From: a virus
Reading direction: 5' to 3' (one strand)
Length of the DNA: 59,110 nt
IMG/VR virus record: IMGVR_UViG_3300027600_000049
Coordinates: 1-59,110 of that record
Shown here: piece after piece, positions 2,455 through 58,803 of the stretch
Layout: each line of letters starts with the position of its first letter
Position numbering within the stretch: position 1 is the stretch's first letter
Made by a program: the position numbers and the translations under genes
The notes under the pieces: generated by a model
What the model was told of the DNA's origin: nothing
Databases searched by the model: none
The model's input: the letters and a program-made list of their open reading frames with translations, nothing else

Positions 2455-3249
2455 ATGTTTAACATAGAACTAATTAGCATCGACAAGGGAACACAGTCAC
2501 GGGTAGCCATCAGCCAGGAAACTGTTGATGATTACTCAAGGCAGATGGAAGATGGGGCCAAATTTCCCCCGGTCATAGTCTTCCATGATGGAGTGGAATA
2601 CTACCTAGCGGATGGTTTCCACCGCTACTTTGCCAATCGCAAGCTTAAGAATGACAGCATTGACGTAGACATTGTTAAGGGTACGCTGCGGGAAGCTATT
2701 TTCTATAGCTTGAAGGCCAACAAGGCGCACGGCTTACGTCCAAGCAACGCCGATAAGCGCAAATCCGTAATCATCATGCTCAAAGATCACGAGTGGGTAA
2801 AGTGGGCTGATCGTCAAATCGCTACGCATTGCGGTGTTTCCCATGTGTTTGTAGCCAAAGTGCGCAAAGAAGTGTCGGGCGGTAAGGCCCAGACAACCCG
2901 CAAGTACAAGGGTAAGGGTGGTAACGTTTCCACCTTCACCAACCGCCAACCCCAGGAGCCGGAGCCGGATGCCCCTGTCTATGACCAAAAGCAGGAGATG
3001 ATGGAGGCTTTGGTGGCTGAGAACGAGAAGCTATCAGAGCAGCTAGCCATAGCCACCATCGATGGTACGGCTGAAGAAAAGGACTTGGCAACCACCATGA
3101 TCGGTGAGTTGAAGGAAGAAATCCGTCTGCTCCAGATCGAATTGGTATCAGTCAAGAAGAGTCGGGATATGTTTCAGTCTGAGAATGCCCAGCTAAAGAA
3201 GCAGGTGGCAATGATGCAAAAGAAGTTGAAGGCAGTGGAAAATGCTTGA
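2455..3249 (+). CDS. ParB/Spo0J-like protein, 264 aa
   Basis: Residues 1-105 look like a ParB N-terminal nucleotide-binding domain: conserved ADGFHRY at 52-58 and KANKAHGLRPSNADKRKSV near 87-105. A helix-turn-helix follows (WADRQIATHCGVSHVFVAKV, about 117-136), then a low-complexity linker, and a long charged coiled coil fills about 180-264. Chromosomal ParB works with ParA; no ParA is visible here, so partitioning cannot be assumed. It could bind the window-wide dyad, one copy of which lies inside its own linker (residues 155-160, GGNVST). It overlaps the helicase start by 8 bases. Confidence 0.75.
   Translation: MFNIELISIDKGTQSRVAISQETVDDYSRQMEDGAKFPPVIVFHDGVEYYLADGFHRYFANRKLKNDSIDVDIVKGTLREAIFYSLKANKAHGLRPSNADKRKSVIIMLKDHEWVKWADRQIATHCGVSHVFVAKVRKEVSGGKAQTTRKYKGKGGNVSTFTNRQPQEPEPDAPVYDQKQEMMEALVAENEKLSEQLAIATIDGTAEEKDLATTMIGELKEEIRLLQIELVSVKKSRDMFQSENAQLKKQVAMMQKKLKAVENA
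2918..2933. repeat. Window-wide dyad, exact copy (GTGGTAACGTTTCCAC)
   Basis: Exact 16-base copy inside the ParB-like gene, extending to GG...CC on both sides. It falls in the linker between the helix-turn-helix and the coiled coil and is read as GGNVST. Confidence 0.8.
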
Positions 3250-4714
3250 GCTACGAGGCTACCAGACCGATACGCTGGAGGCTTTGCGCCAGGGGTTTGC
3301 AGCAGGTGCCAATGCTCAGATACTCTACGCCCCCACGGGGGCGGGCAAAACAGAAATGGCTATAGCTTTGCTAGAAGCCACCCGAGCGAAGGGCAACAGG
3401 GCAGCAATGCTACTGGACAGGATCATTCTGTGCGATCAAACCAGTCAGCGGCTGGAGAAGTACCACATTGACCACGGCGTGATGCAGTCAGGTCATTGGA
3501 GATACAGGCCGCATGAAAAGATCCAGGTCTGTTCGGCGCAAACCCTTGAAAGAAAGGGTGAATTTCCAGGTCTAAACCTTTTGATCGTTGACGAGGCGCA
3601 TCAAACCCGGCAGCAGACAATGGAGTTCATCAAGAACAACCCTGAAATCCGTGTGATCGGGCTGACCGCTACGCCATTCACCAAAGGTTTGGGCAAGACA
3701 TACACCAATGTTGTCTCAACAGTCACGACCAAGCAGTTAGTTGAGCAGAATGTGCTTGTGCCTTTGAAGGTGTTCATCTCCAAAGAGATCGACATGACCG
3801 ATGCCAAGAAGGTAGCGGGCGAGTGGAGTCAGAAGGAAGCCACCACCAGGGGCATGAAGATCACTGGCGACATTGTTGCTGAGTGGATTAAGAAGACCCA
3901 TGAGATATTTAAAAAGCCGGTAAAGACCATCGTGTTCTGCTCGGGCGTGAATCATGGCGCTGACCTAGCGAGGAAGTTTGCAGAGCAGGGGTATAACTTC
4001 ATAGCTGTAAGCTACAGGGACGATGACACATTCAAGCGGGATGTGATTGAGGACTTCTCCAAGCCTGACACAGAGATTCATGGGCTGATCGCCACGGACA
4101 TACTGACCAAAGGCTTTGATGTGCCGGATGTTCTGATCGGTATATCAGCTAGGCCGTTCAGTAAATCCCTGTCCTCCCACATCCAGCAGATGGGTCGCAT
4201 CATGCGCGGCTGCGAGGGGAAAGAGTTTGCCGTTTGGCTGGATCACAGCGGCAATTACCTGCGGTTCCGGCAGGATTGGGAAGATGTTTTTGAGCATGGC
4301 GTAGACAAGTTGGATGATGGCAAGGAGAAAACCAAGCCAGAACCCACCGACAAAGAGAAGGAAGCGGCAAAGTGTCCGGCTTGTGGATCGTTGTGGCCCT
4401 CCAGTTCGGATGCTTGCAGTAACTGCGGTCATGTTCGGGAACGAAAGAACAAGGTAGTCGAGTTGCCTGGGGAGTTGGAGGAGTTAACCGGAACCATGTC
4501 CAAGGCAGATAAGCAGGAGTGGTGGTCAATGCTGCAATGGTATGTTCAGACCCAGGGCTGGTCGCATGGTCGGGCGGCTCATGTCTACAAAGAGAAGTTT
4601 GGGGTGTGGCCCAGGGCTTTGTACGACAAGCCTGTCTATCCAAGCCAGGAGATTGTCAAGTTCATCGACAAAGGTATCAGGGCGTACATCCGGCAGATGA
4701 AGAAGGGAAGATGA
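3242..4714 (+). CDS. SF2 DEAH-box helicase with zinc ribbon, 490 aa
   Basis: ATP-dependent DNA helicase/translocase for phage replication or recombination. Motifs in order: Q-like LRGYQ at 4-8; Walker A PTGAGKT at 31-37; DEAH at 117-120; TATP at 142-145; second RecA domain with ATDILTKGFDVP near 284-295; motif VI QQMGRIMRG near 315-323. A CX2C...CX2C zinc ribbon (C378, C381, C392, C395) follows. Size and order fit phage helicases of the UvsW/RecG-like SF2 group. It overlaps the ParB-like gene by 8 bases and the primase-like gene by 4 (ATGA), so they form one replication operon. Confidence 0.93.
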   Translation: MLELRGYQTDTLEALRQGFAAGANAQILYAPTGAGKTEMAIALLEATRAKGNRAAMLLDRIILCDQTSQRLEKYHIDHGVMQSGHWRYRPHEKIQVCSAQTLERKGEFPGLNLLIVDEAHQTRQQTMEFIKNNPEIRVIGLTATPFTKGLGKTYTNVVSTVTTKQLVEQNVLVPLKVFISKEIDMTDAKKVAGEWSQKEATTRGMKITGDIVAEWIKKTHEIFKKPVKTIVFCSGVNHGADLARKFAEQGYNFIAVSYRDDDTFKRDVIEDFSKPDTEIHGLIATDILTKGFDVPDVLIGISARPFSKSLSSHIQQMGRIMRGCEGKEFAVWLDHSGNYLRFRQDWEDVFEHGVDKLDDGKEKTKPEPTDKEKEAAKCPACGSLWPSSSDACSNCGHVRERKNKVVELPGELEELTGTMSKADKQEWWSMLQWYVQTQGWSHGRAAHVYKEKFGVWPRALYDKPVYPSQEIVKFIDKGIRAYIRQMKKGR

Positions 4715-5523
4715 TGGAGTTGGTAGATTATTGTCGGGCGCATGGGATCGTCATTGATTTCCCACCACCCATCGGATACTGGAAACGTTACCACACAGTC
4801 GATCATCCAAAGAAGCGCAATGGTGCTGTGAAATTCATGGGCGACCATGCTTTTGTGCAGAACCATGCTACCGACACAGAGGTTTCCATATGGAAGCCTG
4901 ACTCAATCAGTGAAGGTGCCCGCAGGGATTACGCCCAGCTTGTGCAAAAAGCAGAGCAGGACAAGATTCGGATGCAGGAAAAGGCAGCGATCAAGGCAAA
5001 GGATCTGCTGCAAGGTTCGTTGTTGGGTAGGCATCCATACTTCAAAGCCAAGGGTTTTCCCGATGAAGAGGGGTGGGTCAATGACAAAAGGCTAATCATT
5101 CCGATGCGAGTGGATGGGGTGCTGGTCGGATGCCAAGTGATCGATGCGGATGGCGAAAAGAAGTTTCTGTCAGGGCAGAAGAGTTCGGGCGCATCGTTTG
5201 ACTTCGACAACAAGGGCAAGCATTTTCTGTGTGAGGGGTACGCTACAGGGTTGTCGTTGCGTCATGCGCTGCGGTGCTTGAAGCGCAATTATGTGATCCA
5301 TGTGTGCTTTTCGGCTGGAAATATGCTCAAGCTGGCGCAGAAATTCGGAGGGTATGTCATTGCCGACAACGATGAGAGCGGGACGGGGGAGAGGGTAGCA
5401 AAGCAAACAGGGCTACCTTATTGGATGAGTGATGTGGTGGGAGAGGATGCGAATGATGCACATCAAAGGCTTGGGCTATTTAAATTTACCCAAAGCCTGA
5501 CCCGATCATTGCCTATACGATGA
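4711..5523 (+). CDS. Toprim-domain primase-like protein, 270 aa
   Basis: Likely DNA primase or primase/helicase partner. The Toprim fold shows in FLCEGYATGLSL (Glu175), VIADNDESG (Asp219, Asp221) and GEDANDAHQRLG near 244-255, which supply metal-binding acidic residues. No N-terminal CHC2 zinc finger is seen, so primer synthesis may be reduced or rely on the helicase's zinc ribbon. ATG at 4711 overlaps the helicase stop and follows AAGGGAAG. One copy of the recurrent dyad lies at codons 24-28 (WKRYH). Its 3' end overlaps the leftward operon's last gene by 18 bases. Confidence 0.85.
   Translation: MMELVDYCRAHGIVIDFPPPIGYWKRYHTVDHPKKRNGAVKFMGDHAFVQNHATDTEVSIWKPDSISEGARRDYAQLVQKAEQDKIRMQEKAAIKAKDLLQGSLLGRHPYFKAKGFPDEEGWVNDKRLIIPMRVDGVLVGCQVIDADGEKKFLSGQKSSGASFDFDNKGKHFLCEGYATGLSLRHALRCLKRNYVIHVCFSAGNMLKLAQKFGGYVIADNDESGTGERVAKQTGLPYWMSDVVGEDANDAHQRLGLFKFTQSLTRSLPIR
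4780..4793. repeat. Window-wide dyad, exact 14-base core (TGGAAACGTTACCA)
   Basis: Core copy inside the primase-like gene. Extended to 16 bases it differs from the consensus only at its first base. It is read as WKRYH, a different frame from the copy at 2918. Confidence 0.8.
5467..5498. terminator. Hairpin at the convergent operon junction
   Basis: AGGCTTGGG (5467-5475) can pair with CCCAAAGCCT (5489-5498) with one bulge around an AT-rich loop. It sits where the rightward replication operon meets the leftward operon. There is no long T run on either side, so it is only a possible bidirectional terminator. Confidence 0.35.
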
Positions 5524-12232: not shown

Positions 12233-12958
12233 GTGCATAAGTTATCCAGGAAAGCTATCAATGAAGGATTAGACCAAGTACCAATGGCTGAGATACTTGG
12301 TGTAAGCGTTTCCAAGGGATTAACACACAAGCAAAAGACATTCGCTAAAGAGCTTGCCAGGGGAACCACGAAGGCGGAAGCATATCGCAGGACATATAGC
12401 AGCACAGCTAAACCCAAGACTGCCGGAGACGCAGGTTATAGGCTCTCAACCGATCCCCGAATATCTCAGGAAGTAGATGCCTATAAGTTAGCGTTAGAGG
12501 CTGCGAAACATAGAACACCAGAAGCTTTGCGACAGTTAGTTATCAAAACCTTGGTTGATGTAGCTATATCCCCTGACACAAAAGACAGCGTTAAGGTTCA
12601 AGCGGTTAAGGTGCTCGGCACTGTGGTCGAGGTCGGTGCCTTCCTGGAGAGGCGTGAGGTTATCAATACCAATAGCAGCACTCAGGCAAAGGCTCAGCTA
12701 CTAGAACAACTCAGGGCAATAATGAAGGGCAACGCAGTGGATGCAATAGAGGTAGACGCTGACAGCTTGCTAGCAGAACTGACCCCTGAACCGCTGGAAA
12801 CGCTGCCAGCCGACACCCACCCAGAGCCCACCACCCGAACTGACGAAGCGGAGTCCCAAGTCCTCAAACATACTATTCCACTCAAACGAACTCAAAAATT
12901 TGCCAGTGATAAACAAACCCCCATACAGGAAGACCCCCCCCATGAAAAGTTTGAATAA
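12233..12958 (+). CDS. terS: Terminase small subunit, 241 aa
   Basis: DNA-recognition subunit of the packaging motor. Residues about 24-75 form a helix-turn-helix region of the terminase small-subunit type (GLTHKQKTFAKELARGTTKA, then EAYRRTY). A long helical oligomerisation region follows, then a Pro/Thr-rich tail. Its place just before the large subunit supports the call. Start GTG at 12233 with GGAG 6 bases ahead; an ATG at 12284 is the alternative. Its end overlaps the winged-helix gene by 17 bases. Confidence 0.85.
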   Translation: MHKLSRKAINEGLDQVPMAEILGVSVSKGLTHKQKTFAKELARGTTKAEAYRRTYSSTAKPKTAGDAGYRLSTDPRISQEVDAYKLALEAAKHRTPEALRQLVIKTLVDVAISPDTKDSVKVQAVKVLGTVVEVGAFLERREVINTNSSTQAKAQLLEQLRAIMKGNAVDAIEVDADSLLAELTPEPLETLPADTHPEPTTRTDEAESQVLKHTIPLKRTQKFASDKQTPIQEDPPHEKFE

Positions 12959-13271
12959 GGGGGTGGGGGGTACCAAAAAAATTTTTAACAAGCGGATGAT
13001 TCCACGGCCTAGTGATATGACGTATGAGGAGTGTATGGAGATAGAGATGAGTCCTATGCAGAACGAAGTTTTTTTAGTGATTGATGAGTGGTGGAAGAAG
13101 TACCACTATGCACCCACGTTGAGGGATATTGCGTATATACGTGGAAAGATGGGTCTGGCAAATACGAAAAGGTTAGTAGACAGGTTAGTAGACCTTGGTG
13201 TTGTGAAGAAGATAGAGAAGAGAGGTAGGACGGTCAGGCCTGTGTATATTAGGTTCAGGGACTTGGAATGA
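12942..13271 (+). CDS. LexA-like winged-helix DNA-binding protein, 109 aa
   Basis: FLVIDEWWKKYHYAPTLRDIA, then GLANTKRLVDRLVDLGVVKKI, closely follows the winged-helix pattern of the LexA N-terminal domain (helix, PT-hinge, recognition helix, wing). There is no S24 peptidase half, so it would not self-cleave on DNA damage. It may regulate head genes or aid packaging. Start uncertain: ATGs at 12942, 12996 and 13017 are all possible and none has a strong ribosome site. It lies between the two terminase genes and directly before a dense dyad array (13276-13366), its most likely target. Confidence 0.7.
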   Translation: MKSLNKGVGGTKKIFNKRMIPRPSDMTYEECMEIEMSPMQNEVFLVIDEWWKKYHYAPTLRDIAYIRGKMGLANTKRLVDRLVDLGVVKKIEKRGRTVRPVYIRFRDLE

Positions 13272-13275
13272 TGCG

Positions 13276-13366
13276 TTGTAAGAATACTGTAAGGTGGAAA
13301 CGTTACCACCTTACGCAAAACTTACGTAAGGATGTTGTAAGGTGGTAACGTTTCCACCGAAACTTA
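13276..13366. promoter_or_regulatory. Dense dyad array upstream of the large terminase gene
   Basis: Holds two exact 16-base copies of the window-wide dyad in opposite orientation, GTGGAAACGTTACCAC (13294-13309) and GTGGTAACGTTTCCAC (13342-13357), with centres 48 bases apart. Seven GTAAG/CTTAC elements surround them, including the palindrome CTTACGTAAG (13321-13330) midway. The first copy extends to a 26-base dyad flanked by GTAAG and CTTAC. It is likely a protein-binding site; operator or packaging-initiation site are both possible. Confidence 0.75.
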
Positions 13367-13376
13367 CAAGGAAGAT

Positions 13377-14867
13377 ATGAAGCTTGAGCAGTTGATTGAT
13401 AAATTGGAGCCGCATGAGTATGAGAAGTTCATGGCTCAGGTGATGGAGTATCGCGGTGCTGTGGAAAGAGAAAAGGCTCAAGATGGGTTTATGAATTATG
13501 TGAAGATGATGTGGCCTGGATTTGTGAGTGGGAGACATCATGCTTTGATGGCTAAGAAATTTGAAGACATTGCCAGCGGGAAAATTAAGCGGGCTATTAT
13601 TAATATGCCGCCTCGGCACACTAAGTCGGAGTTTGCTTCTTATCTACTACCGTCTTGGTTCCTGGGGAAGTTCCCTAATAAGAAGGTCATTCAGTGTTCT
13701 AACACGGCGGATCTAGCTGTTGGCTTTGGCCGTAAGGTTAGAAACCTTGTCGGCTCAGAACAGTATGCAAAAGTGTTTCCGAACGTAGCATTGAGACAAG
13801 ACAGTAAAGCAGCAGGTAGGTGGGCCACCAATGGAGGAGGTGAGTATTTCGCTATTGGCGTTGGGGGAACGGTAACGGGTAAGGGCGCGGATCTATTGAT
13901 TATTGATGATCCGCACTCGGAACAAGAGGCTGCTTTAGCGGCTGGGGATCCGTCTGTTTACGATAAGGTATATGAGTGGTACACCTCTGGCCCTCGGCAA
14001 CGTTTACAACCTGGGGGGTCTATTGTAATAGTGATGACCCGCTGGGGGGATAGAGATCTAACTGGTAGAGTCATTAAGGATGCAGCAGGTAGAGATAAGG
14101 GTGAGGAGTGGGAGATCATTGAGTTGCCTGCTATCATGCCGTCAGGAAAACCTCTGTGGCCTGAGTTCTGGAGTTTTGAAGAGCTGTCTGCTCTAAGGGA
14201 GGAACTTCCGGCTGCTAAGTGGAACGCCCAGTATCAGCAGAACCCAACGGGCGAAGAGGGTGCAATTGTTAAACGGGAATGGTGGAAGAGATGGACAAAA
14301 GAGGATCCACCTGTTTGTCAATTTATTATTCAGAGTTGGGACACGGCGTTTACGAAGAATGAGCGAAGTGACTATTCGGCGTGTACGACTTGGGGTGTGT
14401 TTTATTTGAATGAGAATTCTGACGATGCGAACATTATTTTGCTGGATGCGTTTAAGAAGCGAATGGAGTTTCCTGAGTTGAAGGAAAAGGCCCATCAGAA
14501 TTACACGTACTGGGAGCCAGATGCGTTTGTAATTGAAGCGAAAGCAGCGGGTAGCCCGTTGATATTTGAGTTGAGACAGATGGGGATTGTGGTCAGTGAA
14601 TACACGCCCAGTAGAGGTAACGACAAGTTTGTGCGGATCAATTCAGTTGCTGATTTATTTAGTTCGGGTAAAGTGTGGGCACCTGAGACAAGATGGGCTG
14701 ACGAATTGATTGAAGAGATGGCGGCGTTTCCAAATGCGCCCAATGATGACTTGGTGGATTCTTCTACTCAAGCATTGATCAGGTTCCGCCAAGGTGGGTT
14801 TTTAAGGCTGGCTTCCGATGAACGGGAAGAGCTTAGAAGCTTTCGCAGAAAACACGCTTACTATTGA
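13377..14867 (+). CDS. terL: Terminase large subunit, 496 aa
   Basis: ATPase and nuclease of the DNA packaging motor. ATPase domain: Walker A-like PPRHTKSE at 78-85 (a Thr where most have Gly), then Walker B LLIIDD at 173-178. RNase H-type nuclease: SWDTAF (Asp322), VIEAKA (Glu387) and NDDLVD (Asp457/458). The length is normal for the family. AAGGAAG lies upstream of the ATG at 13377. Confidence 0.95.
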   Translation: MKLEQLIDKLEPHEYEKFMAQVMEYRGAVEREKAQDGFMNYVKMMWPGFVSGRHHALMAKKFEDIASGKIKRAIINMPPRHTKSEFASYLLPSWFLGKFPNKKVIQCSNTADLAVGFGRKVRNLVGSEQYAKVFPNVALRQDSKAAGRWATNGGGEYFAIGVGGTVTGKGADLLIIDDPHSEQEAALAAGDPSVYDKVYEWYTSGPRQRLQPGGSIVIVMTRWGDRDLTGRVIKDAAGRDKGEEWEIIELPAIMPSGKPLWPEFWSFEELSALREELPAAKWNAQYQQNPTGEEGAIVKREWWKRWTKEDPPVCQFIIQSWDTAFTKNERSDYSACTTWGVFYLNENSDDANIILLDAFKKRMEFPELKEKAHQNYTYWEPDAFVIEAKAAGSPLIFELRQMGIVVSEYTPSRGNDKFVRINSVADLFSSGKVWAPETRWADELIEEMAAFPNAPNDDLVDSSTQALIRFRQGGFLRLASDEREELRSFRRKHAYY

Positions 14868-17268: not shown

Positions 17269-17465
17269 TGGATGTAAAACTGGCAGATGTTTTGAACAAG
17301 AAGATTCAAGAACACATAAATCAACATCTAGGAGTGCTGAGTGATGGCGTAGCTAAAGACTACGCTCATTACAAAGAGCTGTGCGGAGCAATCCGAGGTC
17401 TGCAAACCGCACAGATGGAAATCAATGACCTTGTGCGGAAACTAAAGGATGATGATGATGACTGA
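17268..17465 (+). CDS. Hypothetical head-operon protein, 65 aa
   Basis: MDVKLADVLNKKIQEHINQ, then LCGAIRGLQTAQMEINDLVRK and a KDDDDD tail. All-helical with a likely coiled coil; small proteins of this form often follow the portal gene in phages. Role unknown. Coupled upstream (TAATG) and overlapping the co-chaperonin gene. Confidence 0.65.
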   Translation: MDVKLADVLNKKIQEHINQHLGVLSDGVAKDYAHYKELCGAIRGLQTAQMEINDLVRKLKDDDDD

Positions 17466-17856
17466 GTTTGATGTTCAAGCCGTAGATTTGTCGGGCATTT
17501 TGAATGCTTCGGCGGATGAAAAGGCGAAACAGGTGCCAGATCCAGCTACATACCACTTGTTATGTGTCCTACCTGACATTGATGATGAGTATGAAAGCGG
17601 TTTGGTGAAGGCAAACACGACCATGCACTTTGAAGAGTTACTGTCACCAGTGCTTTTTGTCGTGAAAATGGGGCCAGATGCCTTCAAAGACGATAAAAGG
17701 TTCCCTTCTGGGCCTTCCTGCAAGGTGGGAGACTTTGTGTTGGTTAGACCCAACACTGGTACTCGCATCAAAATCCACGGAAAAGAGTTCCGAATCATCA
17801 ATGATGACTCTGTTGAGGCCGTTGTGCAAGATCCCCGTGGCGTAACACGGGTGTAA
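17449..17856 (+). CDS. GroES-like co-chaperonin, about 135 aa
   Basis: Predicted lid protein for a GroEL-type chaperonin, helping capsid subunits fold. HLLCVLPDIDDEYESGLVKAN at 36-56 corresponds to the GroES start and mobile-loop region. CKVGDFVLVRPNTGTRIKI, then KEFRIINDDSVEAVVQ (91-127), closely follows the GroES beta-barrel end (vGD.Vl..ya.te.k..g.e...l...dilav). Phage co-chaperonins such as T4 gp31 are known. Four ATGs in a row (17449-17460) sit after AAAGG; the third or fourth has the best spacing. No GroEL partner is in the window, so the host one would be used. Confidence 0.75.
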   Translation: MMMMTEFDVQAVDLSGILNASADEKAKQVPDPATYHLLCVLPDIDDEYESGLVKANTTMHFEELLSPVLFVVKMGPDAFKDDKRFPSGPSCKVGDFVLVRPNTGTRIKIHGKEFRIINDDSVEAVVQDPRGVTRV

Positions 17857-29193: not shown

Positions 29194-30015
29194 GTGTCTC
29201 TCGGGTGGGGTGATGGCACATGGGGGAGTAACGGATGGGGCGGTACTCTTGACCTCACAGGTAATACCGCCACAGGCGCGGTAGGATCTGCCACACCAAA
29301 CCTTATCATTGCGCTCACGGGGGTATCAGCCTCTGGTGCGGTTGGGACGATGGCTCCCAGCACCTCAGAGGGTGAAGACGGCGATATAGCGAATGGATTT
29401 GTTGGTAATGTAGGGGTAACCCTAGAGGTTGCGCTGACGGGTGTTTCTGCGGCGGGATCAGTTGGTAACGTTACCAGCGGTCAAGATGCAGCAATTACCA
29501 GCGTATTGGCATCTGGTGCAGTTGGGTCTATCACGACATCAAGATTGGTGGCGCTGACGGGCGTTGAAGCATCTGGAGCTACTGGTAACGTTACCGGTGA
29601 CAAGAGCAGTGCTTTGACGGGTGTTGAGGCGTCTGGGGCCGTAGGAACGGTTGTTCAGAGCGCAGCGGTCAGTTTGACGGGTAATCTAGCAACAGGATCC
29701 CCAGGCGGAGTAATTGTCCCTCTGCCATCGTTGCAGGCAGATGGTTCCGTGGGAACGGTTGTCAGTGGAATATCCATTGCTTTGTCTGGAGTGTTGGCAT
29801 CAGGATCCGTTGGAACGGTGTCAGTGGCTGCAAGGTCACTGGCTTTGACAGGCGTAAGCGCAGCAGGTGCGGTTGGTGATGTTATTGCGGTTTATTGGAA
29901 ACCTATAGATGACACGCAGGTCGCATCGTGGCAAAATATCAGCAACCCGCAGACTCCTAATTGGTCAAATGTTTCAGACGAACAGACCGCCAATTGGGAA
30001 GAAGTCGTAACTTGA
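29194..30015 (+). CDS. Repeat-rich virion protein, 273 aa
   Basis: About ten tandem repeats of a 17-25 residue unit like ALTGVSASGAVGTV (examples ALTGVEASGATGNV, ALSGVLASGSVGTV), forming a probable beta-solenoid. An N-terminal GWGDGTWGSNGWGG segment and a C-terminal QVASWQNISNPQTPNWSN segment cap it. Such proteins decorate phage tails or heads. GTG start 29194 after AAAGGGGTAA. Two dyad copies (29463, 29583) sit at the equivalent repeat step. Confidence 0.7.
   Translation: MSLGWGDGTWGSNGWGGTLDLTGNTATGAVGSATPNLIIALTGVSASGAVGTMAPSTSEGEDGDIANGFVGNVGVTLEVALTGVSAAGSVGNVTSGQDAAITSVLASGAVGSITTSRLVALTGVEASGATGNVTGDKSSALTGVEASGAVGTVVQSAAVSLTGNLATGSPGGVIVPLPSLQADGSVGTVVSGISIALSGVLASGSVGTVSVAARSLALTGVSAAGAVGDVIAVYWKPIDDTQVASWQNISNPQTPNWSNVSDEQTANWEEVVT
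29463..29476. repeat. Window-wide dyad, exact copy (TGGTAACGTTACCA)
   Basis: Perfect 14-base palindrome inside the repeat-rich virion gene, read GNVTS. A one-mismatch copy follows at 29583-29596, one to two protein repeats later. Confidence 0.7.
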
Positions 30016-30023
30016 AAGTGAAA

Positions 30024-30818
30024 ATGCTGGTTTATAAGATCACGAATAACGTAAACGGCCACGGCTACATTGGGATCACTCAATGTGCCTTGGCAAAGCG
30101 TTGGCGTGAACACTTGTGTGCGGCACGAACGGGAAGCGGTAAACGCCTGTACAGGGCCATGCGTAAATATGGCACAGACAACTTCAGCATTGCCGTGTTG
30201 TATGAGGCAAAATCATTTGAAGAGCTTCAAAGGGTTGAGTGTCAACTTATCATTGAACACAACACTCACGCCAAGAATGGCGAGGGGTATAACTTGACGG
30301 CTGGCGGTGAAGGCAAAGACCGCATGGATCAGTTGTTTGGCGAAGCCATTCCAAGCTCACTGCTTACCGAAGAGATTGTGGCATTTGCCAGGGATCCGCA
30401 ACACTGGAACATTTCCAATGCAGATGTGTTGGGCATGATTGCCAAGAAATTTGATCTTGATTGTGCAATTGATACAGTCAAGGATGCCCGTAACGGCAGT
30501 TCATGGACTCATTTAAACGCAAAATACCCGCCAATTAAGCGTGGGCGTGGTGTGCGGCATGATGTAGTCTCTGAAGAAGTGCAATCGGCAAGAAAAGAAA
30601 CACTTGCAAAACACCGTTCTGAAGCTGTTGCGGCATCAGCAAAAACACGTACAGGAAAACGTAGCTGCACCGCTAAGTTGTCTGAGCAGGCGGTATGCGA
30701 TATATTCTTCCATAATGAATCATTGAACAAAACTGCGGCTAAATTTGGCATCAGTAAAAAAATGGTTGTTTTAATTAAACAACGTAAAGCGCATACATAT
30801 TTGACTCAAGGACTTTGA
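30024..30818 (+). CDS. GIY-YIG homing endonuclease, 264 aa
   Basis: Free-standing homing nuclease between two virion genes. YKITNNVNGHGYIGITQ carries the YIG half of GIY-YIG (the GIY half reads YKI). LAKRWREHL follows with the catalytic Arg-type position, and VECQLIIEHNT supplies a Glu. The C-terminal DNA-binding end has helix-turn-helix character (LNKTAAKFGISKKMVVLIKQR). Start at ATG 30024 or GTG 30018. It ends one base before the tail fibre ATG. Confidence 0.85.
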   Translation: MLVYKITNNVNGHGYIGITQCALAKRWREHLCAARTGSGKRLYRAMRKYGTDNFSIAVLYEAKSFEELQRVECQLIIEHNTHAKNGEGYNLTAGGEGKDRMDQLFGEAIPSSLLTEEIVAFARDPQHWNISNADVLGMIAKKFDLDCAIDTVKDARNGSSWTHLNAKYPPIKRGRGVRHDVVSEEVQSARKETLAKHRSEAVAASAKTRTGKRSCTAKLSEQAVCDIFFHNESLNKTAAKFGISKKMVVLIKQRKAHTYLTQGL

Positions 30819-36494: not shown

Positions 36495-38984
36495 ATGCCA
36501 CTCAAAAAACTTCTGCTCAGGCCCGGTGTAAATAAGGAGAACACCCGTTACACCAGTGAGAATGGGTGGTATGACTGTGACAAGATCCGCTTTCGCCAGG
36601 GTACGCCAGAGAAGATTGGCGGTTGGCAACAAATCTCTGCACAAAAGTTTATTGGTGTGTGCCGCTCCCTGTGGGCATGGGTTACGCTTGGCGCACAAAA
36701 GCTCTTGGGCGTAGGAACCAATTTAAAGTTTTACATCGAAAGCGGTGGCTTTTACTACGATATAACCCCGATCAATCAAACCAACACGCTGACCAATCCA
36801 TTTGCTATGGTGAGTGGATCGTCCACGGTAACGGTCACTGATGCAAACGGCGGGTACTCAAACAATGGCTATGTAACCTTCACGGGCTCATCGTCCAATG
36901 GTGGCATTACTTTGTTAGGGGAATACCTTTTAACCTATACCACCACGGCCAACACTTACACCGTACCCGTTCAATCGGAAGCGTCAATCTCTATTGCTGG
37001 TAACGTTCCCATCGCTGCCGGATCTTTTGTGATTGGTAATTCGTACAGCATAACATTTGTAGGAACCACTGATTTCACGTTAATTGGAGCGTCAGCTAAC
37101 ACTGTTGGCGTAGCGTTTATCGCTACAGGCGCTGGGTCTGGTTCTGGTACGGCCAAAGCAAATACTGTTTTTGCAACGCAGTTTCAGCTTGCAAATGGTG
37201 TGCAAGTAACGTTAACTACCACGGGTGTGCTTCCTTCGCCGTATGTTGCTGGAACAACCTATTACGTAGTAAATACTTCCGGCTACACATTTAGTCTATC
37301 TTTGACTTCTGGTGGAGTTGTGATTGATTCCGCAGGATCAGTTCAATCAGGGATTTGCACGGTAACGGCTAAGGCATCCTCGACTTCTGCTGCTGGTGGG
37401 GGCACTGTTCGGGCTGCTTATCAGATAGCCACTGGTGCTTCATATGCTGCTGCCGTTGTTGGCTGGGGCGGGGGAACCTGGGGATCTGGACTATGGGGCA
37501 TAGGAACATCATCGCAGCAGCCATTCCGTATGTGGAGTCAAAGTAACTTTGGTGAGGATCTTATCTTTGGCCCAAGCGGTGGTGGCATTTACTATTGGGA
37601 TGCAACTTTTGGGTTGACGGGTACGACATTCACTGTGACGATTGCTACGCCAGCAGTTTTGTCTACATCCATTACATTGGCTAATGGCATGGCAATTGTG
37701 CTGACTACAACGGGGGCGCTGCCTACCGGGTTAAATGTTGGTCAGGTGTACTACGTTATAAATTCAACGGGTACAGACTGTAATTTATCGGCTACTTATA
37801 ACGGTGCAGCCATTAATACTACGGGATCTCAATCAGGGGTTCATAAGATTGCCTCCAGGGCCATAGCTGCGGAAGATTACGGTGGCGCAACAGATGTGCC
37901 AATTGCCCAAAACTACATATTGGTATCTGATTCCAGCCGGTTTGTGTTTGCTTTTGGGGCCACGGAGTACGGATCAGCGACATTCAATCCAATGCTCATC
38001 CGCTGGTCAGACCAGGGAGATCCTTTCAATTGGACGCCAAGCCCCACTGTCGATGCTGGATTTACTTACCTTTCTCACGGGTCACAGATTATTACAGCCA
38101 TGCAGGCCCGTCAAGAAATCTTGGTGTGGACTGATTCATCTCTTTATTCTCTACAGTATGTGGGAGCCCCTAATGTATGGGCTCCACAAATTGTTGGCGA
38201 TAACATTTCTATTGCATCAGAAAACGCTGTTGCTTACGCTAACGGCGTGGCGTACTGGATGGGCGTGGATAAGTTCTACAAATACGATGGTAGAACCCAG
38301 ACACAGAATTGCGATCTGCGCCAATACGTGTTTTCAACCATCAATAAATCTCAATTTACCCAGGTTCTTGCAGGAACAAACGAGGGGTTTAATGAGATTT
38401 GGTGGTTCTATTGCTCTGGCACAAGCACCAATATTGACAGCTATGTGGTCTTTAACTACGCAGAAAACCAGGGCCAAGGCTGCTGGTACTACGGCTCAAT
38501 GGCTAGAACGGCTTGGCTGGATAGCGGTCTGCGAGACTATCCCCTTGCTGCCACCTACGACTACAACATCGTTAACCATGAGCAGGGCGTAGACGATAAC
38601 ACTACGGCGGTAACGTTACCAATTGAAGCTTTCATCACATCTGCTGAGATTGACTTGGAAGATGGGGATAGGTTTGGGTTTATTTGGCGTGTGCTGCCTG
38701 ACATTACGTTCAGGGGATCGACTGCGACCAGCCCTCAAGTGACGATGTATCTCAAGCCCATGCAAAACTCAGGCTCTGGGTATAACAGCCCAGCATCTGT
38801 TGGCGGAGAAAACAATGCTACTGTCACCAGAACGGCCATTCTCCCTATAGAGGAATTTACTGGTCAGATCTATACTCGGGTGAGAGGGAGGCAGATAGCT
38901 ATGGAGGTTAGATCTACGGCGGCAGGTGTGACTTGGCAGCTTGGCTCTCCACGTATCGACATCCGCCAGGACGGCAGACGCTGA
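36495..38984 (+). CDS. Tail hub protein (P22 gp10-like), 829 aa
   Basis: Forms the tail tube/hub below the connector and helps hold packaged DNA. The start LLLRPGVNKENTRYTSENGW, then YDCDKIRFRQGTPEKIGGWQ, and the propeller-like second half (ITAMQARQEILVWTDSSLYS, then ENAVAYANGVAYWMGVDKFY) match gp10-like stabilisation proteins. Two inserted beta modules (about 100-330 and 375-450) add length. It contains one-mismatch dyad copies at 36998 and 38608. Confidence 0.82.
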   Translation: MPLKKLLLRPGVNKENTRYTSENGWYDCDKIRFRQGTPEKIGGWQQISAQKFIGVCRSLWAWVTLGAQKLLGVGTNLKFYIESGGFYYDITPINQTNTLTNPFAMVSGSSTVTVTDANGGYSNNGYVTFTGSSSNGGITLLGEYLLTYTTTANTYTVPVQSEASISIAGNVPIAAGSFVIGNSYSITFVGTTDFTLIGASANTVGVAFIATGAGSGSGTAKANTVFATQFQLANGVQVTLTTTGVLPSPYVAGTTYYVVNTSGYTFSLSLTSGGVVIDSAGSVQSGICTVTAKASSTSAAGGGTVRAAYQIATGASYAAAVVGWGGGTWGSGLWGIGTSSQQPFRMWSQSNFGEDLIFGPSGGGIYYWDATFGLTGTTFTVTIATPAVLSTSITLANGMAIVLTTTGALPTGLNVGQVYYVINSTGTDCNLSATYNGAAINTTGSQSGVHKIASRAIAAEDYGGATDVPIAQNYILVSDSSRFVFAFGATEYGSATFNPMLIRWSDQGDPFNWTPSPTVDAGFTYLSHGSQIITAMQARQEILVWTDSSLYSLQYVGAPNVWAPQIVGDNISIASENAVAYANGVAYWMGVDKFYKYDGRTQTQNCDLRQYVFSTINKSQFTQVLAGTNEGFNEIWWFYCSGTSTNIDSYVVFNYAENQGQGCWYYGSMARTAWLDSGLRDYPLAATYDYNIVNHEQGVDDNTTAVTLPIEAFITSAEIDLEDGDRFGFIWRVLPDITFRGSTATSPQVTMYLKPMQNSGSGYNSPASVGGENNATVTRTAILPIEEFTGQIYTRVRGRQIAMEVRSTAAGVTWQLGSPRIDIRQDGRR

Positions 38985-43692: not shown

Positions 43693-45615
43693 ATGACTGA
43701 TACAGTTGATGACGGCACTTCAATGGGCGACTTTACCTTCGGTGACGGCACCGCAATGGGCGACTTCAACTTTGATTGGTCTGGTGGTGTAGACACATCA
43801 GCATCAGACAAGGTGACGCAATACCAAAATTACCTGGATTTTTACAACAATCCTGCTAACTTGGATCTTATTAACGAGGCTCAAGCTGTTGTTCAAAATC
43901 CAACAGGCAGGCAAGTTATTGAAGATGCCATCAATACTCTGGGTAATGCTGCCGGGTCGTTCATTAAAAACTACCTGTATGACTCAAAGACAAAGCAGTT
44001 TAACGTAGCCGGTATTGCTACGGCTGCTATGGCCCTTAAGGCTTTGCAGGGAGGCGATAAACCACAGTCAAACTCATATCAGGGCAGTATTCCCAACTAC
44101 ACCGCTGTCAGGAAACAGGTTGAATACAACGATCCCAATCGTGTCCCTGGCTCTGCTGGGCGGAGTTACTTTACTGATACTCAGTATGTAACCCCAGGTG
44201 GTGTAGATGCCGCAAATACTGCTGCCGCCACCCAAGCGCAAGGCATTTTGTCAGGGTACAGACCTGCTCCGTCCCCATCGGTTAATCCATACGCGGGCAA
44301 GTTTAGGATGGCATATGAACCTACACCGACTACCACCCCAACTGGTAACGTTACCACTGATGACGCTTCCGGCGTGGCTGCACTGATGCCAGCACAGTTT
44401 GCCCGTGGTGGCGTAGCTAGGTATTTGCAAGGCCAAACAGACGGAATGGCTGACAAGATCCCGTCTTCTATTGATGGGAAGCAAAAGGCCGCCTTGAGTC
44501 ACGGCGAGTTTGTTATCCCTGCTGATGTTGTCTCTCACCTTGGCAATGGAAACTCTGATGCCGGAGCCAAAAAGCTGTATGAGATGATGTCTCGTGTACG
44601 TAAAGCGCGCACTGGAAACCCCGAACAGGGCAAGAAAATCAACCCTGACAAGTTCATGCCAGGGGGGCAGGTTGGCTTTGCTGCTGGTGGTATAGCCAAG
44701 TTTCAAGGCGGCGGGCCAGCAGGCACGGGTGTGGTAACTCCCACCATAACTTCACAAGGCACATCTACTGCTCAAGGTCTTTCTACCTGGGCTGGGCCAA
44801 TGGTGTCTGACTACCTTGGTAAAGGTATGGCTGTAGCCAATACTCCATATCAGGCGTACAAAGGGCCGCTGACCGCTGGTGCCTCAGACCTTCAACAACA
44901 GCAATTTGCCGGTCTGTCTGATGTGGCTAAGACGGGATATACGCCTACGCAATTTAAAGGCGGTATCTTTGACACAAATGCTGCCCAGGCGTACATGAAT
45001 CCATTTCTTGATGTTGCACTCAATCCGCAATTGGAAGAGTTGCGCCGTCAGGGACAGATTACCAACCGGGCAAATCAAGCTCAAGCTACCAAGATGGGAG
45101 CATTTGGCAGTTCCGGCTCGGCACTATCCAAAACAGAAGGTGAGCGTAACGTCCTGGATAAGATGCAATCGGCTCTGGGCCAGGGATACAGTACAGCCTA
45201 CGATAAGGCTATGGCCCAGTTTAACGCCGACCAAACCCGGCAGGCAACAGCAGACCAGAACACAGAAGCATCACGACAGTACGGTGCTAATTTTGGTCTT
45301 ACCACCCTTGATAAGCTGGGTGCGGCTGGCACGGTTCAGCGTGATATTGAGCAGCAAGGTCTTACGGCGGACAAGAAACAGTTTGAAGAAGAGCGGGAAG
45401 ATCCGGCGCAAAAAGTTCAGTTCCAGAAAAACTTGCTTGCTGGTTTGCCTATTACAACGACTGAATCAACAAATATGCAGGGCGAGATTGCAAAGATTAG
45501 CGATCAGATTGCCGGTCTGACTTCGCTGTATCGATCTTTGCAAGGTCTGGGTCAGGCTTCACCAACACCCACCCCCACTCCAACGACAGTTGCTACACCC
45601 ACTCCAACCCGTTAA
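43693..45615 (+). CDS. Putative internal virion protein, 640 aa
   Basis: The central conserved block ARGGVARYLQGQTDGMADKI, then KAALSHGEFVIPADVVSHLG, DAGAKKLYEMM, is widespread in podovirus-like aquatic phages. An Ala/Gln-rich helix and a PTPTPT end follow. Probably ejected or internal. A dyad copy sits at 44343, read GNVTT. Confidence 0.65.
   Translation: MTDTVDDGTSMGDFTFGDGTAMGDFNFDWSGGVDTSASDKVTQYQNYLDFYNNPANLDLINEAQAVVQNPTGRQVIEDAINTLGNAAGSFIKNYLYDSKTKQFNVAGIATAAMALKALQGGDKPQSNSYQGSIPNYTAVRKQVEYNDPNRVPGSAGRSYFTDTQYVTPGGVDAANTAAATQAQGILSGYRPAPSPSVNPYAGKFRMAYEPTPTTTPTGNVTTDDASGVAALMPAQFARGGVARYLQGQTDGMADKIPSSIDGKQKAALSHGEFVIPADVVSHLGNGNSDAGAKKLYEMMSRVRKARTGNPEQGKKINPDKFMPGGQVGFAAGGIAKFQGGGPAGTGVVTPTITSQGTSTAQGLSTWAGPMVSDYLGKGMAVANTPYQAYKGPLTAGASDLQQQQFAGLSDVAKTGYTPTQFKGGIFDTNAAQAYMNPFLDVALNPQLEELRRQGQITNRANQAQATKMGAFGSSGSALSKTEGERNVLDKMQSALGQGYSTAYDKAMAQFNADQTRQATADQNTEASRQYGANFGLTTLDKLGAAGTVQRDIEQQGLTADKKQFEEEREDPAQKVQFQKNLLAGLPITTTESTNMQGEIAKISDQIAGLTSLYRSLQGLGQASPTPTPTPTTVATPTPTR
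44343..44356. repeat. Window-wide dyad, exact copy (TGGTAACGTTACCA)
   Basis: Perfect 14-base palindrome within the virion gene, in a low-complexity Thr/Pro stretch (PTPTGNVTTDD). Confidence 0.75.
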
Positions 45616-47150: not shown

Positions 47151-50100
47151 ATGCCCACTTTACAAGAAGTCCTTGCTGACCCAAACTATGTAAATGCAAA
47201 CTTTGCTACCAAGCAAGCCATTTTCAATAAGTATGCGTCACAGGACACCAACTACTCCCAGGCCAATGATGCAACCCGCTTTGCCATCCGGCAAAAGTAT
47301 GGGGTAGAAACACCCGTAGCCCAGGAAACGCCTACGGCCAAACCTATTCCTCAAAGGACATACGGCGAAGCTGCCAAGGACGTAGGCGGCAAGTTTGTTT
47401 CTGGCATTGGGTCGTTGGTACAGTTACCGGGCCAGTTGTATGGCTTGGCTACTGGAGACTTCTCTAAAACTGGTCTGTTAGGGGCCGGTGAGGACATTAA
47501 GAAGTACGGAGAAGAGATGCTGTCTCCGGCGCTTAAGGCTAAAGAAGAAGCCAGGGCGCAGAAAGTACAAGAAGCTGAGAAGACTGGGCAGATTGCTGCT
47601 GGTGCTACAGCGTTTGGTGAGACTATCAAAGACCCAGCCTTGCTCGTTGGGTTCTTGGTGGAACAAATTCCACAGATTATCCCTGCCTTATTAACAGGTG
47701 GCGGTACTGCTGCACTTACTGCAGCCGGTATTACTGCACGGGAGGCCGCTGCATTGGTGGCAAGTGGCGCTGCCAAAGAGGCGGCTCAGACTGCGGCTAA
47801 GCAGATCGCTGCCAAGAAGGCTGGTGAGCTTGGTGTTAAGGCTGCTGTTGGTACCGGTGCTGTGCAGCAAGGCGCTGATATAGGTGCCGGTGCATATGAA
47901 AACATCTACAAAGAAGCGATAGCTCAGGGTATGTCTGAGCCTGAAGCTGCTCAGAAAGCTTTGGGATTAGCGCGGGCTGCTGGTGCATCTGGTGCTTTGA
48001 TCTCACTGTTGGCCCAGAGACTTCCCGGCGCACGCACCTTGGAAGAAGCATTTGCTGGCGTACCTGGGAAAACTGGTCGCATTCTGGGTGCTGGTAAGGG
48101 TGCTTTGGGTGAGTCCGTAAGCGAGATGGCTGAAGAGGGTGGCGGTAAATTCACCCAGAATTTAGCTATGCGTGAGGTCAATCCTGAGCAGGATCTGCTT
48201 GCTGGTGTTGGTCAAGCTGCTGGTATGGCTGCTATTGGTGGCGGTGGCATGGGTGCCATTGCTGGTGCAGCACGGCGTCCCGGCACCAAGGTGGAAACGT
48301 TACCACCCGTTACGGGAACGGGGAACCCTCCTACAGACAGTCCAGTTGTAGGCACAACCACGGTAAATGTTGGCGGCAAAGATAGCGTAAAAGTTAATAA
48401 AGCGGATGGAAGTAGCGATATTGATGGCGTCCAAGTCACGCCGCCCACAGAAACGGCACCGGGCGAACCTGCTGCCGTGGAAACGTTACCACCTGCCGAT
48501 CAAGGTGTACCCCCTCCAGCCGAGATCCCTGGTGCGCCTACCGGTGTGGAAACGTTACCACCTGCGGAAGCACCTCCTGCCGCTACACCTCCTGCGCCGG
48601 AGGCTGTTGCGCCTATGGAGCCAGAAGCGCCTGAGTTTGTTCCCATTGAAACTGAGCAAACCAAGCCCAGGGGCGTGGCAAAGGTTGAATTTACCCCTGA
48701 AGAAAAGCAAGAAATAAAAGAGGTGGAAGCCTCGCTGGTTCAGATTAACAAAGAAATAAGAGAAGCTCAGGCTGAAAATGGAAGCCTGTTTAGTATGCTC
48801 AAAGGGAAGCTGGTAGAGCGGCCCGGTGCATTTTCACTTTCCGACATTGACAAAAACAAAAAGAGTTTAAAGCAGCTGTATAGCGCAAGTGGGCAGGGTG
48901 TTCTATTAGAGGACATGGTGGCCGATGGCGAATTGGATGCGTTTTTGCCGGGTGAAAATCGTGCAGTTATTAACGGGGAACAAAATGAAAACTTTGATGC
49001 CCAAGCGGCAATAGAGCATATTGCCGAAAAACTGCGAAACGGCGATTACAGAACCGAATATGCTGCCGCAAAGCTGAAGACTGCTCAAAATCAAAAAGCA
49101 GAGATACAGGCGCAGCTTGAAAAATTGAAATCTGTTCCAAGCACAAACTTAGAACTTAGTGAGATCGCTGAGCAGCCAAAAGGTGAGGCCACAGAAGTAA
49201 GCTTAAAAGATCTTGAGGATGAAGCTCTTTCTGCTGGCGTAGATGTTGATCGCTTGAGAGAAGAATTAAGCGACAGTATGCCCAGTGCATCTATTGAAGA
49301 ATTTAAGGGTGCATATCGCAATGCTTTGTTTGCTGCGACAAGCGGTTCGCAGTCATACACCATTGATAACAGCGAATACACCATAGACGAAATTGCAACA
49401 TACATCAGCGAAGGATTTACCGAAGATGAAATCAACGAACTTATCGCCCAAGCCGAGGCCGACCAAGCAGCAATTGCAAAAGCTGCTCCAATCGCTAAGC
49501 CCAGAACAAAGGGTGGCGGTACTAAAAAAATCCCTCCAGAAGAAAAGCCAACAGTAGGCGCAGGTCTTCCCGCAGACTTGCCAGAGCCAAAAGACTTTAT
49601 AGCAAAGAAATCCTTAGAACAGATTGCCAAAGAAATAAATGGCATGACCGCCACCCAGCTTGCGCAGTGGGCTATTGATAATGCTCCCAACAGTGCAGCC
49701 AAAGCAATTGCTGAAAAAGTTTTTGCGCGGGTTAAAGAGTTGGATGAAAGAGGATTCTTTAAAAAACCTGTAAATGTAATGAACAGGGACGATCTTAAAT
49801 TCAGAGGAAAATTTAGCTACAACATTGGAAAAGACTACCGTTTCGGATATTTCACATTTGCCGGTTTAAAGAATGGCAAAGAACATAGAGGTACAGGCAC
49901 AAGATATATAACCATATTGCATGAGCTGTTGCATTCGGTTACTTCCGCAACATTAGACCCATCATTCTTGGGTAAAAAAAGCAAAGAAGCTAATGATTTG
50001 CAAGTTGTTCTTGATAAAGTCAAGAAACAAATGAAGGCAGATCAAGCTGCTGGTAGAATACATCCCATTCTTGATCGCATCAAGGTTAACAAAACCAATA

Positions 50101-54005: not shown

Positions 54006-54020
54006 TGGAAACGTTACCAC
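54005..54020. repeat. Window-wide dyad filling a convergent gene junction
   Basis: Exact GTGGAAACGTTACCAC. Its first G is the last base of the giant gene's TAG and its last C pairs with the G of the opposite gene's TAG. The junction therefore reads TAGTGGAAACGTTACCACTA, a symmetric 20-base unit. A role as terminator or roadblock is possible. Confidence 0.8.
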
Positions 54021-54859
54021 TAATCCCCGCAGAAGCAGGCAATGGCCTCCTCTGTGGGGTCGAATAGATTGCTTTGCGCCTTGGAGTAATCAAGCATGGC
54101 GGCGTATCCAGGGCGGTCAGTCCGAAACTTGTCGCCATCTCTAATCTTTGGCTCTGTAATTGACGCCTCTATGTTGGCCCACCACGTTGCCCTGCTTGGC
54201 TTTTCCGCAATCAATGAAAAGATTTGCGATGCGCCCTTGAGAAAGCACAGGTCGCAATTGCCGTGATAGGTAATGCCATTGATATTTGGAAGGCCAAGAT
54301 CAAACGGCTGCGCTTGCCAAAACTTGCTGATGTCTTCTTTGGTTATCCCGTCATCTGCTAGCGGCATATACCTTGTTACGCCCTTGCGTCCGTCAGATGG
54401 GTTGGCCCGTATCTTTGCAACCCGGCGCTGCTCATCGGCTCGGATGCCAATAAGGTTGTCCCATTCTGTCCAGCCGTTGGCCTTCAAGTATCTTTCAAAG
54501 GTCAGGATCTTGAGGTCAACCGTGCAGAACCGTGCTATTGGGTTTGGCAGGTAGCCCTTCTTCTTTACAAGCGCCTCAAACGGCTCCCCATTTCTGCTGG
54601 CGGTTTCGTATGTGACCACCTCAAACGGCGGATCAGCATCCCTGTACTCAAGCCATGTGATGGGTACATTCCAGTTTGTTTCTATGTCATGGCAGAAGCG
54701 TAACGTAGCGTCATCTTCCTTGCCAGTGTTGGCAAACAGGATCACCGCATCCTCTGGAAGACCATTGTTTTCTTGCAGAACACGCCACAACAAATACGCA
54801 GACGTTCTACCTCCGCTAAACGATATGCAGGTGGGAACATCTATTTTGTATGGGTTCAT
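54020..54859 (-). CDS. PAPS reductase-like protein, 279 aa
   Basis: ATP-pyrophosphatase fold: ISFSGGRTSAYLLWRVL holds the SGGxxS PP-loop at 15-20, then VILFANTGKED and CTVDLKILTFERYLK. Cys pairs CDLCFLKG near 206-209 and CFCGD at the end could bind a metal or Fe-S cluster. Phage copies of this family are common; sulfate reduction or a DndC-like DNA modification are both possible, and no Dnd partners are seen. Last gene of its operon. Confidence 0.8.
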   Translation of the reverse strand: MNPYKIDVPTCISFSGGRTSAYLLWRVLQENNGLPEDAVILFANTGKEDDATLRFCHDIETNWNVPITWLEYRDADPPFEVVTYETASRNGEPFEALVKKKGYLPNPIARFCTVDLKILTFERYLKANGWTEWDNLIGIRADEQRRVAKIRANPSDGRKGVTRYMPLADDGITKEDISKFWQAQPFDLGLPNINGITYHGNCDLCFLKGASQIFSLIAEKPSRATWWANIEASITEPKIRDGDKFRTDRPGYAAMLDYSKAQSNLFDPTEEAIACFCGD

Positions 54860-58787: not shown

Positions 58788-58803
58788 CTGGAAACGTTAC
58801 CAC
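58788..58803. repeat. Window-wide dyad abutting a start codon
   Basis: CTGGAAACGTTACCAC (15 of 16) ends immediately before ATG 58804. It lies where a ribosome site would be, and none is seen; an AT-rich TATAAA box (58773-58778) lies upstream. Confidence 0.75.

Follow-up and report, generated by a model that had tools for sequence, protein, structure and literature searches.

Introduction

Several described systems pair a ParB-fold protein with palindromic or dispersed DNA sites: ParB with parS in ParABS partition (Spo0J, P1 ParB), Noc with its NBS sites in Bacillus nucleoid occlusion, and KorB of plasmid RK2, a clamp that regulates transcription from multiple dispersed operators, OB (PMC11790492). 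Four residues in and near the helix-turn-helix (HTH) redirect ParB/Noc specificity from parS to NBS (PMC7383237). Cluster A mycobacteriophages spread many sites, the stoperators, over their genomes for a phage-encoded DNA-binding protein (PMC9283540). Proteins with the ParB fold but without ParA are common in phages, apparently without known targets, according to the accessible part of a 2025 survey (PMC12704722), which treats nucleotide binding and domain fusions of phage ParB-CTPase-fold proteins and there gives no cognate DNA sites. It is the closest work from a literature search that turned up no account of dispersed sites belonging to phage ParB-like proteins that lack a ParA.

Here we analyze a freshwater phage contig of 59,110 nt (IMG/VR record IMGVR_UViG_3300027600_000049, positions 1 to 59,110; "the window" means this whole stretch), with emphasis on a repeat array between its terminase genes. 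We put the probability at roughly 0.78 that the phage's own ParB-like protein binds this array as a double site and that the array is one cluster of a genome-wide family of sites, as judged from sequence comparison.

Results

Architecture of the array

The array (13276-13373) lies downstream of the gene for the terminase small subunit (terS, phrog_51, 12233..12958, + strand) and of a gene for a winged-helix (wHTH) protein (phrog_3502, weak LexA_DNA_bind match, 12948..13271, +), and upstream of the gene for the large subunit (terL, phrog_38, 13377..14867, +). It is made of two tandem 48-bp palindromic units with one GGWAACGTTWCC site per unit. Unit 1 (13278..13325, +) is a nested palindrome, GTAAG-6-GTAAGGTGG-AAACGTTA-CCACCTTAC-6-CTTAC, of 48 bp, the consensus spelling of the unit core between GTAAGGTGG and CCACCTTAC being WAACGTTW; unit 2 (13326..13367, +) is the 48-bp unit minus 6 bp in the right arm. 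At base level, the paired opposed 18-mers of the preliminary description are confirmed: core site 1, GGTGGAAACGTTACCACC (13293..13310), and core site 2, GGTGGTAACGTTTCCACC (13341..13358), are exact reverse complements with centers 48 bp apart, and the palindrome CTTACGTAAG (13321-13330) has its center exactly midway. Its seven GTAAG/CTTAC elements (at 13278, 13289, 13310, 13321, 13326, 13337, and 13363) were also found; in 200 shuffled genomes no 91-bp stretch had more than 4, and the densest one averaged 2.6. The wording "two exact dyads" holds only for the 18-bp inverted repeat that the two copies form jointly, whereas the single dyad is inexact: in the 26-bp dyad at 13289-13314, 12/13 positions pair, with A.A at the W position.

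The double unit of 48/49 bp is retained in close relatives (terL 96-99% identical). Opposed orientation was rejected as a functional feature because relatives do not keep it; both sites have the same orientation in one close relative (L058) and both are self-symmetric in another (L055). In the same relatives CTTACGTAAG changes to CTTACAGTAAG or is lost, and it was rejected as an independent site, being the abutment of two 48-bp units, split by an inserted base in relatives. The array is limited to relatives with terL identity of at least about 95%, where it is present as two or three units; at 89% identity (G017, G048) one site upstream of the wHTH gene takes its place. By this comparison a 48-bp unit is duplicated at the terminase junction in the clade of the window. 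No sigma-70 promoter was found within the array, and the array has no Rfam family match. A separate feature lies where the end of terS overlaps the start of the wHTH gene (12933-12975): a hairpin of a C-run and a G-run, GACCCCCCCC...GGGGGTGGGGGGTA, with A/T-rich DNA after it. Similar GGGGGTRGGGGGGTAT elements occur at the same terS/wHTH place in five relatives (G043, G048, G024, G025, G027).

Dispersed sites in the window

The 12-mer GGWAACGTTWCC has 13 exact copies in the 59-kb contig vs. 0 in 30 order-2 Markov genomes, and its one-mismatch copies number 10 vs. 0.6 expected. The 18-mer of the array is also exact at 2917 and 48290, which the preliminary description had overlooked. Apart from the array, where core sites 1 and 2 lie, an 18-bp site encoding GGNVST (2917..2934) falls in the linker of the parB-like gene, and a core site (4781..4792) is directly downstream of the helicase gene. 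Four sites are spelled GGTAACGTTACC, one within a structural gene (29464..29475) and the others at 29584..29595, 38609..38620, and 44344..44355. Three encode VETLPP, namely the 18-bp site at 48290..48307 and the core sites at 48479..48490 and 48548..48559; the last two lie where two convergent genes meet (54007..54018) and upstream of an exonuclease/ERF recombination operon (58790..58801). No strand is assigned to any of these sites. On these counts the array is the densest cluster within a family of at least 13 sites across the genome.

The majority of the core sites are coding DNA. Since the coding copies fall in no fewer than two frames (GNV[ST], VETLP), selection would act on the DNA and not on the peptide. 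The W pair is A.A or T.T in 9/13 core sites, which favors a protein that reads an A/T position and speaks against a pure RNA hairpin.

Some genes of the window may be recorded here. The three VETLPP-encoding sites lie in the gene for a 2,284-aa protein (47151-54005); the first 660 residues of this protein align with phrog_2206 (virion RNA polymerase), but only with the N-terminal portion of that profile. A PAPS-reductase-like gene (phrog_424, 54020-54859) follows the convergent junction, which has a core site exactly on it. The head module includes a GroES-like co-chaperonin gene (phrog_3188, 17449-17856), and the structural module a GIY-YIG endonuclease-like gene (29961-30818), possibly a homing endonuclease.

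Distribution of the motif

IMG/VR was scanned for the 18-mer, and GGWAACGTTWCC was then counted over whole contigs; the contigs of the relatives are metagenomic and possibly partial. The core was found in many contigs, 5 to 23 copies each, and the reversed-pattern control gave 0 in nearly all contigs. The motif-bearing contigs span 40% to 69% GC. G001 (IMGVR_UViG_3300032287_002700) has 23 copies, all GGAAACGTTTCC, and a terL with only 27% identity; G007 (3300000271_000007; 69% GC) has 8 copies and no terL, portal, or MCP match. Despite their unlike structural genes, both have in common with the window a ParB-like gene adjoining a helicase gene, and phages of this kind that share the dispersed motif have the window's recognition helix in the ParB-like protein. 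The named phages MW574966 and OR003939 show DNA similarity only in terL (64%). The GGWAACGTTWCC motif is absent from the ten bacterial-bin (MAG) contigs with related terL, and since these terL relatives come from diverse bins and do not carry the motif, no host was identified.

The ParB-like protein

The proposed reader of the sites is an orphan ParB-like protein of 264 aa (2455..3249, +). Its predicted domain order is ParB N-domain, HTH, disordered linker, and long C-terminal helices or coiled coil, and its recognition helix is CGVSHVFVAKVRKE. The protein matches phrog_1033 (ParB-like) with an E value of 5e-16; its overall similarity to ParB is weak, and searched alone at 0.01 it has no Pfam match. 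Among the 15 members of the ParB-like family, PF02195 matches 6 and HTH Pfam families match 3, weakly; the A1 profile matches ParB in PDB. The AlphaFold model (pLDDT 82) has HTH helices at 119-126 and 130-140, then long C-terminal helices, and its best Foldseek matches are ParB-CDP, Noc bound to its DNA site, and KorB (up to 6e-7). All family members share residues Q14, R16, D53, G54, R57, and G93, at positions equivalent to boxes I-III, and the predicted nucleotide-binding motifs are derived (GTQxR, DGFHR, NxxHG). The adjacent gene encodes a DEAD/ResIII-type helicase (3242..4714, +), and a homologue of it is the neighbor of the parB-like gene in almost every relative. The contig, which is possibly incomplete, gave no PF13614 or PF01656 match to ParA, and the controls matched in all 14 genomes. 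No tyrosine integrase family was found in the window contig.

Co-variation of recognition helix and motif

Unbiased k-mer and dyad counts showed that several relatives which carry a ParB-like gene and lack the motif have a dispersed dyad of their own. Helix SH[VP][FY] pairs with GGWAACGTTWCC, SRVY with GAAACGTTTC (17 copies, G029), SAPF with TGTAAACGTTTACA (G040), STVF and SVTL with TAAACGTTTA (G027 and G031), SHMT with GGAACWWGTTCC (G024), and SQSF with TACTAGTCWGACTAGTA (8 copies in the complete genome MW202545.1); few sites underlie the motifs of G026, G018, G032, and G036. Among 31 dereplicated genomes, the SH[VP][FY] helix predicts at least two GGWAACGTTWCC sites (8/12 vs. 1/19, Fisher p = 0.0005); identity to the window protein over the remainder of the domain has no such predictive value (p = 0.81). 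These p-values are optimistic, since one set of genomes served both to choose the motif classes and the interval test and to carry out the tests. Four dereplicated proteins with an SHPF helix (G030, G037, G041, G046) come from genomes with no GGWAACGTTWCC and no clear substitute, and the dispersed dyad search was empty in about a dozen ParB-bearing genomes.

The helices of the wHTH protein do not behave in this way: near-identical wHTH helices occur with different motifs and different helices with one motif. The wHTH helix of G025 resembles those of G020 and G024, yet the motif of G025 is that of the window; G027, G029, and G031 have wHTH helices near that of the window and other motifs; and G018 and G019 have the wHTH protein, with GGWAACGTTWCC sites absent. 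On present sequences the motif is thus one that tracks the ParB-like recognition helix rather than the wHTH helix, and the wHTH protein is an unlikely reader of the core site.

Several repeats in these genomes are noted in their own right. In ctpbd312 (MW202545.1, complete) one TACTAGTCWGACTAGTA pair lies 27 bp apart in the parB-like gene and another, 29 bp apart, just after terL. G018 (L173-L175; terL 84% identical), which is without the core site, has 7 AGAAA-N10-TTTCT and 6 GAAAT-N8-ATTTC dyads, where about 0.1 would be expected, as well as a repeated 11-mer, ATCGGATGGTC. The ParB-like-bearing phage G030 (L295-L296) has 21 copies of AGATTGAAACA and 16 of AGTTACCGGAG in 40 kb, a dispersed or clustered repeat.

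Recurrent positions of the sites

Position tests used each genome's own motif. The terS-terL interval holds 12 sites vs. 0.84 expected, in 8/10 dereplicated genomes vs. 0.8 expected. The preliminary description had proposed a higher-order binding platform between the terminase genes, and the recurrence of the site in this interval supports such a platform; the winged-helix protein as its binder is not supported. The parB-like gene holds 11 sites vs. 1.77 expected, in 8/13 genomes vs. 1.6 expected; these sites are not all translated in one frame (GNV[ST], V[EV]T[LF]P, TSQTS), which suggests that selection acts on DNA here as well. At the junction, the usual place of a site is between terS and the wHTH gene; the clade of the window has its sites between the wHTH gene and terL. 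Junction sites have extended arms, with half-positions 9-13 pairing at about 0.5-0.8 vs. near 0.3 elsewhere (some rows come from the same clade), and their arm sequences differ between lineages.

Discussion

Proposed explanation

Sequence comparison supports a dispersed site family, co-variation of the motif with the ParB-like helix, and recurrent positions in the genome. We infer direct binding from these: a dimer of the ParB-like protein would read the palindrome GGWAACGTTWCC via its HTH recognition helix (S-H-V-F/Y-V). By analogy to ParB, Noc, and KorB, the sites would most likely be loading sites for a clamp of that kind; the protein probably closes as a nucleotide-gated (CTP) clamp and slides or bridges, and the dispersed sites would load it over the whole phage genome. 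At two places, within the parB-like gene and at the terS-wHTH-terL junction, selection appears to keep sites; their wording follows the helix and their place stays. The complex bound at the junction, where the sites lie in longer dyads that may form hairpins, would most likely be an operator or roadblock that sets terminase and late-gene expression, and it may also mark DNA for packaging. Sites within the gene for the protein itself and at the junction hint at feedback and at control of late genes. The GTAAG/CTTAC elements are restricted to one clade, and the ParB site does not account for them; with their one-helical-turn spacing they are possibly targets of another protein, perhaps the wHTH one.

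A broader picture is tentative, and we would not bet on it: in apparently ParA-less phages, which are widespread and of which many are freshwater phages, an orphan ParB-like clamp on dispersed, helix-matched sites would organize the phage genome, a "phage centromere" in the form of an obligatory site at the terminase genes would link this organization to packaging or late expression, and the protein and all its sites would switch specificity together.

Alternative explanations

A different use of the same binding is somewhat improbable: the ParB-like protein would bind, but the junction site would serve packaging, as a phage centromere that marks or bridges DNA for terminase, and not transcription. 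The position at the terminase genes is conserved while the motif changes, and an architectural role accounts better than simple repression does for the dispersed sites in late coding genes; regulation is suggested instead by the sites that lie within the parB-like gene and ahead of the recombination operon. We consider it quite unlikely that the array is a packaging start (pac/cos) for the small terminase with secondary dispersed copies. It does lie between terS and terL, sites turn up there in genomes of different motif classes, and the junction sites have extended dyad symmetry, but the motif is common to phages with very different terminases, is also found within the parB-like gene, and changes together with the helix of the ParB-like protein. 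The window contig is classed as linear and has no end repeats. The preliminary description had also offered the array as an operator for the LexA-like winged-helix protein encoded immediately upstream. That gene ends 6 bp before the array, the site is directly upstream of the wHTH gene in several relatives, and the GTAAG/CTTAC elements at 11-bp spacing could be wHTH targets. We rejected this operator, which now seems very unlikely, because the wHTH helix does not follow the motif; furthermore, G001, G006, G007, and the complete MW202545 all have dispersed sites and no detected wHTH homologue, and two wHTH-bearing relatives (G018, G019) are without GGWAACGTTWCC sites.

Much the same low weight is given to RNA hairpins or terminators in the terS-wHTH-terL transcript that act without a DNA-binding protein. 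The predicted fold is strong (-48.8 kcal/mol, z -8.7), the arms of the junction sites stay complementary even as their sequence differs between lineages, and there is one terminator-like match on the minus strand. On the other hand, a hairpin would avoid the A.A or T.T core mismatch of 9/13 sites, most sites are in coding DNA, the sense strand has no U-tract, and the motif follows a DNA-reading helix and has no Rfam match. Least probable of all is an oligonucleotide dictated by the host (restriction avoidance, a chi-like or an uptake sequence) in phages of one host; the motif occurs in phages with differing structural genes, but the close terL relatives G018 (84%) and G019 (80%) are without it and have a different ParB helix, the motif contigs range from 40% to 69% GC, and the ten bacterial-bin contigs with related terL lack it.

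Comparison with known systems

The putative system resembles ParB-parS in its predicted ParB N-domain, HTH, and C-terminal dimerization region, in its palindromic site, and in having a site within the parB-like gene itself. It is unlike ParB-parS in that the window contig is without a ParA family, the sites are genome-wide and not clustered at an origin, the window site differs from TGTTNCACGTGAAACA, and the phage protein is short with derived nucleotide motifs. With Noc-NBS it shares the ParB fold, palindromic sites spread over the whole genome, and the lack of a dedicated ParA; there, too, specificity switches when the helix changes (PMC7383237), and Foldseek matched the model to the Noc-DNA complex. 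The window protein, however, is phage-encoded, its site is another one, and no division role is to be expected. KorB-OB is similar in the ParB fold and in the Foldseek match, and would be so in clamp-mediated regulation from multiple dispersed operators (PMC11790492), but KorB is a plasmid protein with the partner KorA, whereas the sites of the window are mainly coding and no KorA-like partner is known. Like the Cluster A stoperators, the system would comprise a phage-encoded DNA-binding protein and many genome-spread sites (PMC9283540), binding in the window being deduced from sequence; stoperators are asymmetric sites of a temperate-phage immunity repressor, in contrast to palindromic sites, a ParB-like reader, and no integrase found here.

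The two selected positions indicated, own gene and terminase junction, and the predicted protein-site pairs that the sequence data yield, at least six with different specificities, offer a natural series of specificity switches and make the role of phage ParB-like proteins directly testable. The window protein has the fold that was surveyed as widespread and uncharacterized in phages (PMC12704722); compared with the accessible part of that survey, what the present analysis would add for the window family is cognate sites and their co-variation with the recognition helix.
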